In this document: positions 25,697-29,605 of the stretch, piece by piece | Numbering within the stretch: position 1 is the stretch's first letter | Layout of the letters: each line of letters begins with the position of its first letter | DNA from: a virus | IMG/VR virus record: IMGVR_UViG_3300017917_002374 | Location: 124,001-188,000 of that record | DNA: 64,000 nt | Strand: one strand, 5' to 3' | Notes under the pieces: generated by a model | Seen by the model: only the letters and a program-made list of their open reading frames with translations | The model's database searches: none | What the model was told of the DNA's origin: nothing | Position numbers and translations under genes: made by a program

Positions 25697-25927
25697 TACA
25701 GTGTGATGCGGAACGAGGCTGCGGCAACACTATAACTTGCCAAACGGGCGGAGCTGAGGATGAAGCTGTGGCGATAACGCAGTGGTAAAATTCAGAATGA
25801 TAAAGCACATTCAAACACATGATGGCGGCCGGCGCCATGGGCGCACGTTACGGTGGCCCAGGAATGTGTTTTATCATACACTTTGGATGAACAGATAAAT
25901 CTGACTCCGAATCAGACAGACTCCTGG
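25697..25927 (+). ncRNA. Candidate structured RNA of about 230 nt
   Basis: No gene fits here. The stretch is GC-rich compared with its neighbours and has a clear architecture: a 16-bp stem of 25797-25812 with 25862-25877 (one G-U pair) closes a multi-branch junction holding hairpin ATGGCG 25822-25827 / CGCCAT 25833-25838 and hairpin GGGC 25839-25842 / GCCC 25856-25859, extended by CAC/GTG inside. Further pairing is likely in 25700-25790. It lies right before the tRNA promoter. It matches no RNA family I know. The ends are estimated. Confidence 0.55.
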
Positions 25928-25956
25928 TTGACAACAGCCCCCCAGAGTGTTACACT
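25928..25956 (+). promoter_or_regulatory. Sigma70-type promoter of the tRNA array
   Basis: TTGACA 25928-25933, 17-bp spacer, TACACT 25951-25956, with the first tRNA starting 12 bases later. CTAAATA follows at 25955. Confidence 0.75.
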
Positions 25957-25968
25957 AAATAGAGTTTT

Positions 25969-26050
25969 GCCCATGTGGTGGAATGGTAGACACGCTAGTC
26001 TTAGGAACTAGTGCGAGAGCGTGGGGGTTCGAGTCCCTCCATGGGCACCA
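25969..26050 (+). tRNA. tRNA-Leu(UAG)
   Basis: Acceptor GCCCATG pairs with CATGGGC; anticodon stem CTAGT/ACTAG with loop CTTAGGA gives anticodon TAG; short class II variable arm; CCA encoded. Confidence 0.93.
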
Positions 26051-26062
26051 TTAAATACGTGT

Positions 26063-26308
26063 ATGAAAGAACTGCTTAAAAATCTGCCTCAGATTCTAGG
26101 TGCCTTGCCTGAGATAGTAAAGTACCTCAAGTACATTCCTATTCTTATGGTACTAGGTGGATTAGGTTATCTAGCATATTTTTACATGCAAAATCACAAA
26201 GATCCATATGTGTGTGTTAACAATCAGGTATTTGAACAGTTACGAGTGGATAGCGATATCTATATTTTCAAAGGTGAAACCTGTGTTGATGCAAAAGATT
26301 TGAAATAA
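26063..26308 (+). CDS. Small membrane protein inside the tRNA array
   Basis: 81 residues (MKELLKNLPQIL start); the frame extends back through tRNA-Leu, so the ATG at 26063 is chosen. One transmembrane helix (about residues 24-42) splits an amphipathic N-terminal helix from a polar C-terminal part with two cysteines. It lies between tRNA-Leu and tRNA-Ala and would be co-transcribed. Function unknown. Confidence 0.55.
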   Translation: MKELLKNLPQILGALPEIVKYLKYIPILMVLGGLGYLAYFYMQNHKDPYVCVNNQVFEQLRVDSDIYIFKGETCVDAKDLK

Positions 26309-26310
26309 TT

Positions 26311-26386
26311 GGGGGTATAGCTCAGCTGGGAGAGCGGCGGCTTTGCAAGCCGTAGGTCGCAGGTTCGATCCCTGTTACCTCCACCA
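26311..26386 (+). tRNA. tRNA-Ala(UGC)
   Basis: Acceptor GGGGGTA/TACCTCC, anticodon loop TTTGCAA with anticodon TGC, T-arm AGGTTCGATCCCT, CCA encoded. Confidence 0.93.
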
Positions 26387-26393
26387 AATAAAT

Positions 26394-26470
26394 CCGAGTG
26401 TAGCGCAGCCTGGTAGCGCATCTGCTTTGGGAGCAGAGGGTCGGGAGTTCGAACCTCTCCACTCGGACCA
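26394..26470 (+). tRNA. tRNA-Pro(UGG)
   Basis: Acceptor CCGAGTG/CACTCGG, anticodon stem TCTGC/GCAGA with loop TTTGGGA, anticodon TGG; CCA encoded. Confidence 0.93.
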
Positions 26471-26477
26471 ATTCTAT

Positions 26478-26553
26478 TGGGGATTCGCCAAGTTGGTAAG
26501 GCATCGGATTTTGATTCCGACATTCGGTGGTTCGAGTCCATCATCCCCAGCCA
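26478..26553 (+). tRNA. tRNA-Gln(UUG)
   Basis: Acceptor TGGGGAT/ATCCCCA, anticodon stem TCGGA/TCCGA with loop TTTTGAT, anticodon TTG; CCA encoded. Confidence 0.93.
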
Positions 26554-26554
26554 T

Positions 26555-26631
26555 GCGACCGTAGCTCAGTTGGATAGAGTACTGGCTTGCGAAGTCAGTG
26601 GTCGGAGGTTCGAGTCCTTCCGGTCGCACCA
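26555..26631 (+). tRNA. tRNA-Arg(GCG)
   Basis: Acceptor GCGACCG/CGGTCGC, anticodon stem CTGGC/GTCAG with loop TTGCGAA, anticodon GCG; CCA encoded. Most bacteria read CGN Arg codons with an ACG (inosine) tRNA, so GCG is unusual. Confidence 0.92.
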
Positions 26632-26647
26632 GTTCAAGGAGATAACC

Positions 26648-26824
26648 ATGAAACCTATTACATTTGAAAATCGTGTAAGTCACGAGCGTGTGATCTGTGA
26701 TGACGTGCGGCAGGTTCAGACCATTGACGGCGTTGAGTTTCTACAGGTTAGACGTCAGAATGAGCAACGACATTTTTTAATGCGCAAAGACAGTTTGCAA
26801 AAAATTGTTGATAAAAAGAAATAA
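26648..26824 (+). CDS. Small hypothetical protein inside the tRNA array
   Basis: 58 residues (MKPITFENRVSHERV start) with AAGGAG upstream. The frame stays open back through two tRNAs, which is not meaningful. Mixed charge, a possible small beta domain; function unknown. Confidence 0.6.
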   Translation: MKPITFENRVSHERVICDDVRQVQTIDGVEFLQVRRQNEQRHFLMRKDSLQKIVDKKK

Positions 26825-26828
26825 CAGT

Positions 26829-26905
26829 GGTGTTGGTAGCTCAATTGGTAGAGTTCTGGATTGTGATTCCAGTGGTTGCGGGTTCAAGCCCCGTCCATCA
26901 CCCCA
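26829..26905 (+). tRNA. tRNA-His(GUG)
   Basis: Anticodon stem CTGGA/TCCAG with loop TTGTGAT, anticodon GTG. Start set at 26829 so that G29 acts as the His-specific G-1 opposite C73; the acceptor then has one T-T mismatch. CCA encoded. Confidence 0.88.
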
Positions 26906-26907
26906 AA

Positions 26908-26983
26908 GCCAACTTAGCTGATGTGGTCATAGCGGCGGTCTGAAGAACCGTGGAAAGACGTTCGATTCGTCTAGTTGGCACCA
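26908..26983 (+). tRNA. tRNA-Phe(GAA)
   Basis: Acceptor GCCAACT/AGTTGGC, anticodon loop CTGAAGA with anticodon GAA, T-arm AGACG/CGTCT; CCA encoded. D-arm short (GCT/AGC). Confidence 0.85.
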
Positions 26984-26984
26984 A

Positions 26985-27431
26985 TTAACCTTTGAATTCG
27001 CGCCAGGCGTTACAACAGCCGCGAGCATCAACTTTAGTATCTAGTTTGAAATCTTTGGGCAGCTTTTTGTTTAGGTCATCAAACAATGAACAGATCTTGG
27101 TGTCTGCGCCAAAGTACAAACAGTTTTCGCAACGCACTTGTCCTAGTACATAACCAGATGCTTTGGGATCAACTGGTCTTTCAATGAACTCTTGATCGTC
27201 CTTGGGCTCACCGTTGATATAGAGTGCGCAGCTGGCATTAGCCACAACCTTGAAGCTCTTAGGGTAAATGTTACAGCGTTCTTTTCCTGGCATAAAATGC
27301 AAACAGGTACCACATTGTGCATGTTGAGTCACACCAGGTGGCGGATCCATGTACAAAAATGCATCACGAGCAACTTTAGGTCCACTGTCCTTGGCTTCAG
27401 TGACAATTTGAATAAAATCTTTAAGATCCAT
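26985..27431 (-). CDS. Cysteine-rich protein on the opposite strand of the tRNA array
   Basis: 148 residues, read against the tRNA genes and filling the gap between tRNA-Phe and tRNA-Thr. Start at the ATG at 27431, since the earlier ATG (27452) would overlap tRNA-Thr. Cysteines form CGTC, then C-x5-YP, VRCENCLYFG and GCCNAW: two possible metal or iron-sulfur sites. No family recognised. The gap before it shows no sigma70 promoter that I can place. It is the only minus-strand gene before 52 kb. Confidence 0.65.
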   Translation of the reverse strand: MDLKDFIQIVTEAKDSGPKVARDAFLYMDPPPGVTQHAQCGTCLHFMPGKERCNIYPKSFKVVANASCALYINGEPKDDQEFIERPVDPKASGYVLGQVRCENCLYFGADTKICSLFDDLNKKLPKDFKLDTKVDARGCCNAWREFKG

Positions 27432-27444
27432 ACAGTATTTAGCT

Positions 27445-27518
27445 GCTCTCATAGTATAAAGGCATTACACTACATTGGTAATGTAGAAACTCTGGATCGT
27501 TACCAGATGAGAGCACCA
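27445..27518 (+). tRNA. tRNA-Thr(GGU)
   Basis: Acceptor GCTCTCA pairs perfectly with TGAGAGC; anticodon stem CTACA/TGTAG with loop TTGGTAA, anticodon GGT; T-stem TCTGG/CCAGA but T-loop ATCGTTA rather than TTCRANY. CCA encoded. Easy to miss because of the odd T-loop and short D-arm. Confidence 0.82.
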
Positions 27519-27520
27519 AT

Positions 27521-27594
27521 GCCCCTGTAGCTCAAAGGTAGAGCAATCGATTGATAATCGATAGACGTTGGATCGTTACCATCCGGGGGTACCA
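27521..27594 (+). tRNA. tRNA-Ile(GAU)
   Basis: Anticodon stem ATCGA/TCGAT with loop TTGATAA, anticodon GAT; acceptor GCCCCTG/CGGGGGT with G-T wobbles. T-loop ATCGTTA as in the Thr tRNA. CCA encoded. Confidence 0.87.
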
Positions 27595-27599
27595 AAAAC

Positions 27600-27675
27600 G
27601 GTAATGTAGCATAGTGGCCAATGCACCTCCTTCATACGGAGACTATCGCTGGTTCGAGTCCAGCCATTACCACCA
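27600..27675 (+). tRNA. tRNA-Met/Ile2 (CAU)
   Basis: Acceptor GGTAATG/CATTACC, anticodon loop TTCATAC with anticodon CAT, T-arm GCTGG/CCAGC. The sequence alone does not decide between elongator Met and a lysidine-modified Ile2. Confidence 0.88.
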
Positions 27676-27677
27676 AA

Positions 27678-27754
27678 CGGCCCTTAGCTCAACTGGATAG
27701 AGTTCTGCGCTTCGAACGCAGCGGTTGTGGGTTCAAATCCTGCAGGGCCGGCCA
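27678..27754 (+). tRNA. tRNA-Arg(UCG)
   Basis: Acceptor CGGCCCT/AGGGCCG, anticodon stem CTGCG/CGCAG with loop CTTCGAA, anticodon TCG; CCA encoded. Confidence 0.93.
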
Positions 27755-27762
27755 AAGAATAC

Positions 27763-27850
27763 GGAAGTGTGCCAGAGTGGTTTAATGGAGCAGTCTTGAA
27801 AACTGTCGTACTGAAAGGTACCGTGGGTTCGAATCCTACCACTTCCGCCA
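27763..27850 (+). tRNA. tRNA-Ser(UGA)
   Basis: Class II tRNA with long variable arm; acceptor GGAAGTG/CACTTCC, anticodon loop CTTGAAA with anticodon TGA; CCA encoded. Confidence 0.92.
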
Positions 27851-27880
27851 GTATTAGCAAAATAGCAACAAAATAGGCGG

Positions 27881-27909
27881 TTGACCATTATTCAATCATT
27901 TGCTACACT
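27881..27909 (+). promoter_or_regulatory. Sigma70-type promoter of the second tRNA group
   Basis: TTGACC 27881-27886, 17-bp spacer, TACACT 27904-27909, preceded by TGC (extended -10). It lies between tRNA-Ser and tRNA-Asn and could also drive the large RNA at 28183. Confidence 0.72.
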
Positions 27910-27927
27910 ATTGAAAGTTAGAAACAT

Positions 27928-28003
27928 TGTCTCGTAGCTCAGTTGGTAGAGCAGGTGACTGTTAATCACCCTGTCGCTGGTTCGATCCCAGCCGAGACAG
28001 CCA
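27928..28003 (+). tRNA. tRNA-Asn(GUU)
   Basis: Acceptor TGTCTCG/CGAGACA, anticodon stem GGTGA/TCACC with loop CTGTTAA, anticodon GTT; CCA encoded. Its GTT anticodon is a normal queuosine target. Confidence 0.93.
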
Positions 28004-28009
28004 GTTTTT

Positions 28010-28084
28010 GCACCCATCATCTAGTGGTTAGGATATCGCCCTTTCACGGCGAGTACACCGGTTCGAATCCGGTTGGGTGTACCA
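28010..28084 (+). tRNA. tRNA-Glu(UUC)
   Basis: Acceptor GCACCCA/TGGGTGT, anticodon stem TCGCC/GGCGA with loop CTTTCAC, anticodon TTC; CCA encoded. Confidence 0.92.
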
Positions 28085-28094
28085 GTTTAAAGTT

Positions 28095-28180
28095 GGGGAT
28101 GTGTGCCGAGCGGCGAAGGCAGCTGACTGTAAATCAGTGACAGAGAAACACCGTAGGTTCGATTCCTACCGTCCCCACCA
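28095..28180 (+). tRNA. tRNA-Tyr(GUA)
   Basis: Class II tRNA with long variable arm; acceptor GGGGATG/CGTCCCC, anticodon loop CTGTAAA with anticodon GTA; CCA encoded. Confidence 0.92.
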
Positions 28181-28182
28181 AG

Positions 28183-28856
28183 TTCCGGTTACCACTTTCC
28201 TGAAAGTGGCGTATGGTAAACGAGAAAACCCAGGTGGCTATGGCACCTTTAGCGAAACATAGACTCTGCATTACGATGTGGTGTCTCCGGTGTTTCAGAC
28301 GACATAGCAGCGTGGACACTACGCGGCACAGTCCTTTTAGTGTTCGGACAGGGTAACAACTCCAGCTTGGGGGCGACCGTGGAAAAGCGTGGCCCAAGCA
28401 TAAAGGCAAGTGCTATAGATGACAACTGGGTATCGTGTGTGGACGCACACACTATGCGGGCACTCCCGGCCGGGGACGGGTCCTGATATAACCAACAGCG
28501 GCTTTGACACACTTAGCGGTGGACGTCTAAATTGGTACTATAGCACTTACCTTTATGTCAAGACGTGGGGGCGCCACCCCCTACTCTGGTCCGGAGGATG
28601 AGAAGACCGTGGTAGGTCAGGACCTTACTGTTTGGTGCAAACAGCGTTGGCAATACGAGAATCCTCTCTGGTCGGGGAGCGGGTGGGGGCATGCGTGATG
28701 TGGGCAGTGCAAAGACTGTTCACTGATGTGCTATAATAACCGCCGCAGAGAGGAAGCACCTATTCAGGTCTCAAAGTGTTCATGGACGCACGCCAGCCTG
28801 TCACGTTGGAAGAAGGGGATCGTTACCCCTTGGGACCGCCAGATAAATTGAGAAGA
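28183..28856 (+). ncRNA. Giant structured RNA candidate (GOLLD/ROOL-like)
   Basis: About 670 bases with no credible gene, between tRNA-Tyr and the next CDS, clearly GC-richer than the flanking coding DNA. Many local hairpins are visible: CCACTTT/AAAGTGG near 28190-28208, AGGTG/CACCT near 28231-28247, GTGTG/CACAC near 28437-28453, GGGGG/CCCCC near 28568-28582, TGTTTG/CAAACA near 28630-28645 and AAGGGG/CCCCTT near 28813-28831. Size, GC, dense hairpins and placement in a phage tRNA array fit the GOLLD and ROOL classes of giant ornate RNAs. The class is inferred from context and form; I could not align it. Promoter 27881 may drive it. Confidence 0.7.
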
Positions 28857-28858
28857 CA

Positions 28859-29068
28859 ATGAGTGAATTTAAAGTATATTGGACCTACGGCGGTGAGAGC
28901 CATGGAGAAGCGTTTCAGGACGTGACCCAGGCATTGGATCGCTGCCAACAACTAAGAAACAGTGGTCGTAGATTTGTGACCATGGCCAGTGAAATTGATG
29001 ACATGGTTGGAGAGTTTGGAGTAACAGAAACGGACTCCACTTACAACTGGAAAAAACGGAGAATCTAA
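28859..29068 (+). CDS. Small hypothetical protein
   Basis: 69 residues (MSEFKVYWTYGGE start) right after the large RNA, with a weak GAGAAG upstream. Coupled to the next gene by TAATG. Function unknown. Confidence 0.6.
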   Translation: MSEFKVYWTYGGESHGEAFQDVTQALDRCQQLRNSGRRFVTMASEIDDMVGEFGVTETDSTYNWKKRRI

Positions 29069-29313
29069 TGAGAGATTATACGCCAAAAATTGCCAAGGCA
29101 GATCTTGAGCATGGTGCATACTATGCGGGTCGCTGTCGCAATGCACACGAAGCACGTTGGAACGCCAGCATACAAAAGTTCGTGCATTGGCGTACCAAAT
29201 TCAATCATACTTTTTTAGAAGAAATTTGTCATCCAGAAGACGAACAACAGTTTGATGTGTTTGTGGTTGAAGCAAAATTAGATAGACCAGAACGAGAAAT
29301 TCCATTAAAATAA
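29068..29313 (+). CDS. Small hypothetical protein
   Basis: 81 residues, His/Arg-rich middle (AYYAGRCRNAHEARWNASI near 17-35). No motif known. Confidence 0.6.
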   Translation: MRDYTPKIAKADLEHGAYYAGRCRNAHEARWNASIQKFVHWRTKFNHTFLEEICHPEDEQQFDVFVVEAKLDRPEREIPLK

Positions 29314-29366
29314 ATTTTTACACAAGGAGAGTCCAAAATGGACAGTGACAAGAGTGACAAACGCCC

Positions 29367-29441
29367 GGGGGTGTAGCTCAGAGGAAGAGCAACTGGCTTT
29401 TAACCAGTAGGCCGAGATATCGTAATTCTCCACCCTCACCA
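29367..29441 (+). tRNA. tRNA-Lys(UUU)
   Basis: Acceptor GGGGGTG/CACCCTC, anticodon stem CTGG/CCAG with loop CTTTTAA, anticodon TTT. T-loop ATCGTAA, another A54/T58 variant. CCA encoded. Confidence 0.85.
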
Positions 29442-29527
29442 TATGAAAACACATTATAGCGGATTTCGCAAGTATAAGTCGCATTCTAAAGAGTGCCCTT
29501 GAGATTGGATATAGTGTGTTTCCATAT

Positions 29528-29605
29528 GCAACGGTGGCAGAGAGGCCCAATGCAAGGGACTGCAAATCCCTAAAACCGTGAGTTCGAATCTCACCCGTTG
29601 CTCCA
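29528..29605 (+). tRNA. tRNA-Cys(GCA)
   Basis: Acceptor GCAACGG/CCGTTGC, anticodon stem GGGA/TCCC with loop CTGCAAA, anticodon GCA; CCA encoded. Last tRNA of the array. Confidence 0.9.

Follow-up and report, generated by a model that had tools for sequence, protein, structure and literature searches.

What fills the long stretch without genes that directly follows tRNA-Tyr in the tRNA array of a large phage? The window, the 64,000 nucleotides of DNA that we analyzed, corresponds to bases 124001–188000 of an IMG/VR virus record of 354,959 bases, and its source is an uncultured jumbo phage. It encodes a T4-type DNA polymerase (phrog_262), and the phage is large and T4-like; a TerL family search gave no match, the terminase family searched being probably the wrong one. 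The tRNA array comprises 18 tRNA genes on one strand (25969–29605), including tRNA-Tyr (GTA; 28095–28180, + strand; Rfam 53.7 bits), which ends in an encoded CCA. The original prediction placed about 670 GC-rich and hairpin-rich bases without a gene immediately after tRNA-Tyr. The start point and the lack of a gene are borne out, but the length is not: the last ~75 nt are a divergent tRNA-Asp (GTC; 28767–28841, + strand) recognized by ARAGORN and Rfam (34.5 bits compared with a gathering threshold of 29), and the non-tRNA part left to explain is therefore ~585 nt (28181–28765), starting right after the encoded CCA. Its GC content is indeed high (0.51–0.56 compared with 0.40–0.49 across most of the flanks). 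The longest open reading frames in it span 87–91 aa and none is plausible as a gene, and in almost all homologues of the elements described below every one of the six frames is interrupted, so that a coding signature is lacking in the comparative data as well. Elsewhere in the array, between tRNA-Phe and tRNA-Thr, a 155-aa open reading frame with no PHROG match lies on the opposite strand (26985–27452, − strand). The minimum free energy of the interval as a whole is merely mildly below that of shuffled sequences (z −1.64; 1 of 20 shuffles equally good), and structure is thus not provable from energy alone; the proof is comparative.

On the evidence of homologous loci, the interval is not best read as one RNA; three independent RNA families, which we designate M1, M2, and M3, lie head to tail in it. 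Relatives of a neighboring gene provided the starting point, yielding locus L002 (close; 96% identity over 237 bases) and locus L012 (a weak match in another tRNA array). A DNA pattern based on the L012 match retrieved ~30 more contigs with a common core, which is M3, and the remaining upstream part matches two other sets of loci, at ~28183–28402 (M1) and ~28404–28556 (M2), whose placement relative to M3 differs. M1 (28181–28397, + strand) is supported by homologues in L108, L082, and L112 and by the covariation in alignment A3; M2 (28398–28558, + strand) by the ends of its closing helix P1 and a match to covariance model R2 at 28406–28559 (E 2.7e-23); and M3 (28559–28765, + strand) by a match to covariance model R3 at 28561–28762 (E 5.3e-36) and its relatives in L002 and L012. 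The units are about 215, 160, and 205 nt in size and abut, separated by 0–2 nt and without an intervening tRNA. Pattern scans located M3 in 64 viral stretches and M2 and M1 in at least 119 each, a few of these being chance matches, and a profile search of all 305 fetched loci gave 205 M1, 143 M2, and 115 M3 matches. The distinct sequences collected from IMG/VR contigs number 179 for M1, 130 for M2, and 104 for M3. These families recur, mostly placed between tRNAs, in the arrays of numerous further large uncultured phages.

Covariation identifies all three families as structured RNAs with covarying pseudoknots. M1 has a 5′ hairpin (CACTTTCCTGAAAGTG), a helix formed by GGACACT and AGTGTTC, a 3′ hairpin (GCTTGGG/CCCAAGC), and an invariant motif, GGACAGGGTAACAACTC, which is located at 28346–28362 of the window (152346–152362 of the genome) and is the feature present in at least 119 viral stretches. 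Its hairpin loop CTATG pairs with a downstream CATAG, and this pseudoknot covaries to CTAGG/CCTAG and CTGGG/CCCAG; over the 36 sequences of A3, 88.4% of cells are paired compared with 78.9% after shuffling (covariation score of 0.273 vs. 0.121). M2 consists of the closing helix P1 of up to ~20 bp, a 7-bp hairpin, and hairpins P3 and P4. The GACG loop of the 7-bp hairpin is invariant, and its stem pairs in all sequences even though five of the seven pairs have changed on both sides. The loop of P3 forms a pseudoknot with a downstream strand, found as GCCG/CGGC, GCGA/TCGC, GCGT/ACGC, or GCAT/ATGC, whose outer pair is poorly aligned in A1 (37.5% of cells) and rests on reading the sequences. In A1 (48 sequences) paired cells amount to 91.4% compared with 67.1% after shuffling, and the score is 0.586 compared with 0.186. 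M3 is composed of seven covarying helices and two pseudoknots and includes the conserved strands GGCAATACGAGAA, GTCGGGGAGCGGGTGG, and CTATAATAACC. The first pseudoknot pairs a loop ACCC with GGGT (also ATCC/GGAT and GTCC/GGAC) and the second pairs GGT with ACC; alignment A2 (51 sequences) has 95.3% paired cells compared with 77.2% after shuffling, a score of 0.494 compared with 0.167, and two-sided changes in 27 pairs. A conserved TATAAT in M3 was considered as a promoter and rejected as the main reading; some family members have TACAAT instead, and the hexamer sits between covarying strands.

For each of the three units, 0 of 500 shuffles attained the observed covariation score. Shuffles ignore relatedness, so these counts are not probabilities; control alignments with slid registers, which preserve relatedness, agree, the score dropping to about 0.04–0.10. 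Covariation in homologues, anticipated by the original prediction, is thus present in every unit. The hairpin richness it described holds in the sense of covarying structure but not as an exceptional folding energy of the whole: M2 alone is exceptional (z −3.99 for the window copy; family mean z −5.4), and M1 and M3 are near chance relative to shuffled sequences, as is expected where much of the structure is pseudoknotted.

The units keep a fixed relation to tRNA strand and a variable relation to one another. In pairings of units with tRNAs, 6398 are on the same strand and 3 on opposite strands. M3 starts a median of 3 nt past the end of a tRNA, M2 ends a median of 8 nt before the next tRNA, M1 often occupies the whole gap between two tRNAs, and P1 of M2 reaches the CCA of the upstream tRNA in many relatives. 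The tRNA-Asp that follows in the window has a low score and an odd D-arm (AAAGTGTTCATGGACGCAC); this form is also found after M2 in L145, L159, and L183, and the tRNA-Asp at this place in L002 is more standard. Of 15 large records, 10 contain M2 and 11 contain M3, almost always as one copy, which amounts to about one copy per record of 260–365 kb; the exceptions are one 524-kb record with two M3 copies and one record with two M2 pieces at its ends. The exact M1 motif is absent from most large records, and divergent M1 copies were detected by profile in loci of some of these records (L163, L182, L205, and L230). All three units are present in 16 loci, in the orders M1-M2-M3, M1-M3-M2, and M2-M1-M3 and with one or two M1 copies, and the profile search of the 305 loci revealed other pairwise orders; M1 and M2 are adjacent in 13 loci and M3 and M2 in 26.

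A minority of copies (eight of M3, seven of M1, and five of M2) are on loci without a recognized tRNA, and a whole-contig search of four such contigs of 31–86 kb found no tRNA. M3 and M2 stay together on two tRNA-free contigs, L138 and L148, and M3 is alone on others. These contigs are fragments and the tRNAs may lie elsewhere in the genomes, so that independence of tRNAs is suggestive only. A probably structured element of ~110 nt (GGGACAAGTGCGTTC..GTGAATC..GGTG.CAC.TCCCAAAACCACC), which we term M5, is located beside M2 and/or M3 at L138:11101–11212, L148:2033–2144(−), and L186:90–201(−), the first two on contigs without tRNAs; a profile search for M5 beside M2 and M3 on tRNA-free loci gave only three copies.

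The original prediction likened the interval to GOLLD and ROOL RNAs and allowed for a new branch or a new class. A cmscan of 28085–28960 against all 4227 Rfam families (E ≤ 10) returned two tRNAs and three subthreshold matches, with neither GOLLD nor ROOL among them. One of the three, tmRNA_permuted (19.1 bits compared with a threshold of 47; E 0.12), rests on the T-arm of tRNA-Tyr. The other Rfam 15 families (ribozymes, introns, riboswitches, rRNA, RNase P, SRP, 6S, and sRNAs) have no match in the interval at or near their cutoffs. For 18 homologous loci searched at gathering thresholds, tRNA and tmRNA are alone among the matches listed; for ten homologous loci searched at E ≤ 1, again without GOLLD or ROOL, nothing convincing covers the new elements, the subthreshold matches being on tRNAs or chance-like. 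The interval is accordingly neither a member nor a branch of GOLLD or ROOL, and the alternative of a new class of ornate noncoding phage RNA in a tRNA array stands. Among the best blastn matches listed for the window region in cultured phages, the tRNA-Tyr part alone is represented; searching 50,697 phage records with M1, M2, and M3 from relatives gave nothing at E ≤ 1, a search that can miss divergent copies, and an M2 pattern has no exact match in GTDB genomes, with the same proviso. In the literature on GOLLD and ROOL, on T4 rnaC and rnaD, and in surveys of noncoding RNAs, we did not find the three families described, although an earlier description is possible. From these searches M1, M2, and M3 are previously uncatalogued families that are absent from Rfam.

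The array contains other noncoding elements. Inter-tRNA noncoding spacers of the fetched loci have a terminal helix of at least 9 bp in 176 of 456 cases compared with 31 after mononucleotide shuffling, and they form several other recurrent families, so that M1–M3 seem to be the most clearly defined part of a larger group. In the window, an element closed by CATATGAAAACACA...TGTGTTTCCATATG lies between tRNA-Lys and tRNA-Cys (29442–29527); similar AAACACAT...GTGTGTTT elements with varying interiors follow tRNA-Lys in L012 (1361–1440), L103, L104, L159, L176, and L201. Another noncoding, hairpin-closed element (TGATAAAGCACATTC...GAATGTGTTTTATCA; 25799–25878) is located just upstream of a promoter candidate (TTGACA-17-TACACT; 25928–25956) and tRNA-Leu. 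In other phages, an inter-tRNA hairpin RNA of ~75 nt (GAGAGCCAC...CCTGG..ACTAGGTCCTGCAACC..GTGGCTCTC), with stem changes that look compensatory, is found in about a dozen loci (e.g., L161:989–1063, L162:4675–4751, and L012:954–1016). Inter-tRNA families of ~160 nt (GATAGACG..TTGAGTCC..CGAGACAATCCAG.GAGTCC..GATAGTTGGGC; L098:1460, L116:1162(−), L119:11184, and L069:797) and ~125 nt (TTTTGCTGATGTAAGC..AAACGGTA..; L095, L103, and L275) were also observed. Promoter-like inter-tRNA sequences followed by GTTCTTTAAAAATTT precede tRNAs of related phages at L103:2252(−), L189:2559, L156:7734, and L090:8578(−); GTTCTTTAAAAATTT resembles the boxA antitermination element of bacterial rRNA operons and was not found in the window.

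We favor the reading, to which we assign a probability of roughly two in three, that M1–M3 are separate noncoding RNA genes of the tRNA array whose products would be co-transcribed, excised, stable, and trans-acting, possibly jointly. A sigma70-like promoter candidate (27881–27909, + strand; TTGACC-17-TACACT with a TG before the −10 element, an extended −10), which is a consensus match only, lies upstream of tRNA-Asn, and the tRNAs Asn, Glu, and Tyr, the units M1, M2, and M3, and tRNA-Asp would then share one transcript. We infer that trimming of the 3′ end of tRNA-Tyr would free the 5′ end of M1, that the RNase P cut at tRNA-Asp would free the 3′ end of M3, and that the 20-bp closing helix of M2 may serve as an RNase III-type separation point. 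The compact, pseudoknotted products could then persist and act in trans, possibly together, in parallel with T4 rnaC and rnaD. That knotted, conserved, near single-copy RNAs occur in shifting places argues for trans-acting products, and the joint presence of the trio and the frequent adjacency of M2 and M3 hint at a joint role. In the phage of the window, where the units abut, one long transcript could act as a unit.

A more ambitious proposal, which we regard as possible but less likely than not, is that M1–M3 and further array families constitute one multi-RNA assembly of jumbo phages, a phage-specific RNA or RNP machine encoded in or beside tRNA arrays. The pseudoknotted RNAs seem to be inherited together with their order shuffled and, in some lineages, to remain together without tRNAs.

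The elements might instead act in cis, aiding the processing or folding of tRNA precursors (as entry points for RNase III, E, or P or as insulation) and being functionless once excised. Their position between tRNAs, the long closing helix of M2 that often extends to the CCA of the upstream tRNA, and the general enrichment of terminal helices in inter-tRNA spacers are consistent with this role; however, there is about one copy per genome despite many tRNA junctions, and the conserved loops and pseudoknots go far beyond a simple stem. The presence of M3, or of M3 with M2, on tRNA-free loci also argues that these are not merely tRNA-processing signals, and we consider a purely cis-acting role unlikely. 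Similarly improbable, in our judgment, is a narrower version of the trans-acting reading in which M1–M3 are decoys that bind and blunt host RNA-targeting defenses (e.g., anticodon nucleases) or ribosomes. Phage tRNAs have often been proposed as replacements for cleaved host tRNAs, and the setting, a large T4-like phage with a tRNA array, is consistent with such a role; but M1–M3 have no known partner and no tRNA-like fold, the RF00005 model having no match inside them.

The single giant RNA of the original prediction would retain M1-M2-M3 as one 585-nt molecule with a quaternary structure like that of GOLLD or ROOL, a fusion of modules found separately elsewhere. The abutment of the units without an internal tRNA, the adjacent pairs in other loci, and a total size within the range of ROOL speak for it. 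The structure of each unit is closed in itself, however, the GOLLD and ROOL models are unmatched, and order and spacing vary across the 16 loci with all three units, of which only the genome of the window has a contiguous trio; given parts that are separate and reordered in other phages, we judge this not to be the best reading and quite unlikely. Mobile DNA cassettes (MITE-like or attC-like inverted repeats) moving through tRNA arrays without an RNA function would account for the permuted order and for the inverted-repeat ends of M2 and of small elements such as that at 29442–29527, but are highly improbable given the near single copy per genome, the constant orientation with tRNAs, the retention of pairing through base changes in pseudoknots and internal hairpins, and the absence of any recurring mobility gene or duplicated target among what was seen.

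Phage tRNA arrays are commonly taken to encode nothing but tRNAs, and GOLLD, ROOL, and T4 rnaC and rnaD have no settled function. M1–M3 are three well-supported structured RNA families with enough covariation for drawing models and annotating genomes, and one locus has thereby exposed members of a conserved phage RNA set. Their co-occurrence and permuted order convert the vague question of what giant RNAs near phage tRNAs do into testable ones: whether the units are excised, whether they persist, and whether they associate with one another, with the ribosome, or with a phage protein.

Among known systems, tmRNA (beta and permuted) is also pseudoknotted and is found in the same region of two relatives (L159:13913–14302 and L169:2025–2375(−), scored by the beta and permuted tmRNA models), but M1–M3 have neither a tRNA-like domain nor a tag reading frame. 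GOLLD is one molecule whose length often exceeds 800 nt, its 3′ region universal and its 5′ region variable, and it forms a homo-oligomeric nanocage, whereas the interval of ~585 nt comprises three separable units of 160–220 nt without a conserved joint order; the likeness to GOLLD and ROOL is in tRNA-side location and ornateness and not in sequence or organization (PMC12286853). ROOL RNAs are found in phages and prophages near tRNA islands and contain many pseudoknots (PMC12286853). M1–M3 are likewise complex pseudoknotted RNAs beside phage tRNAs, a resemblance we read as analogy and not homology, since ROOL is one RNA in contrast to three separable units and, like that of GOLLD, its model is unmatched at E ≤ 10. 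The closest parallel is with T4 rnaC (139 nt) and rnaD (119 nt), stable RNAs of the phage tRNA cluster that are classed as late, were checked by northern blot, and still have no known function (PMC9697503). Like these, M1–M3 are small structured RNA genes adjoining tRNAs on the same strand of a phage tRNA cluster, a likeness of position and structure. T4 has two such RNAs, whereas the arrays here have three or more families whose order is permuted, besides other spacers, and M1, M2, and M3 profiles searched with nhmmer have no match to rnaC or rnaD in the T4 cluster. The best reading is that M1–M3 are comparable to T4 rnaC and rnaD in kind, by analogy and not by homology.
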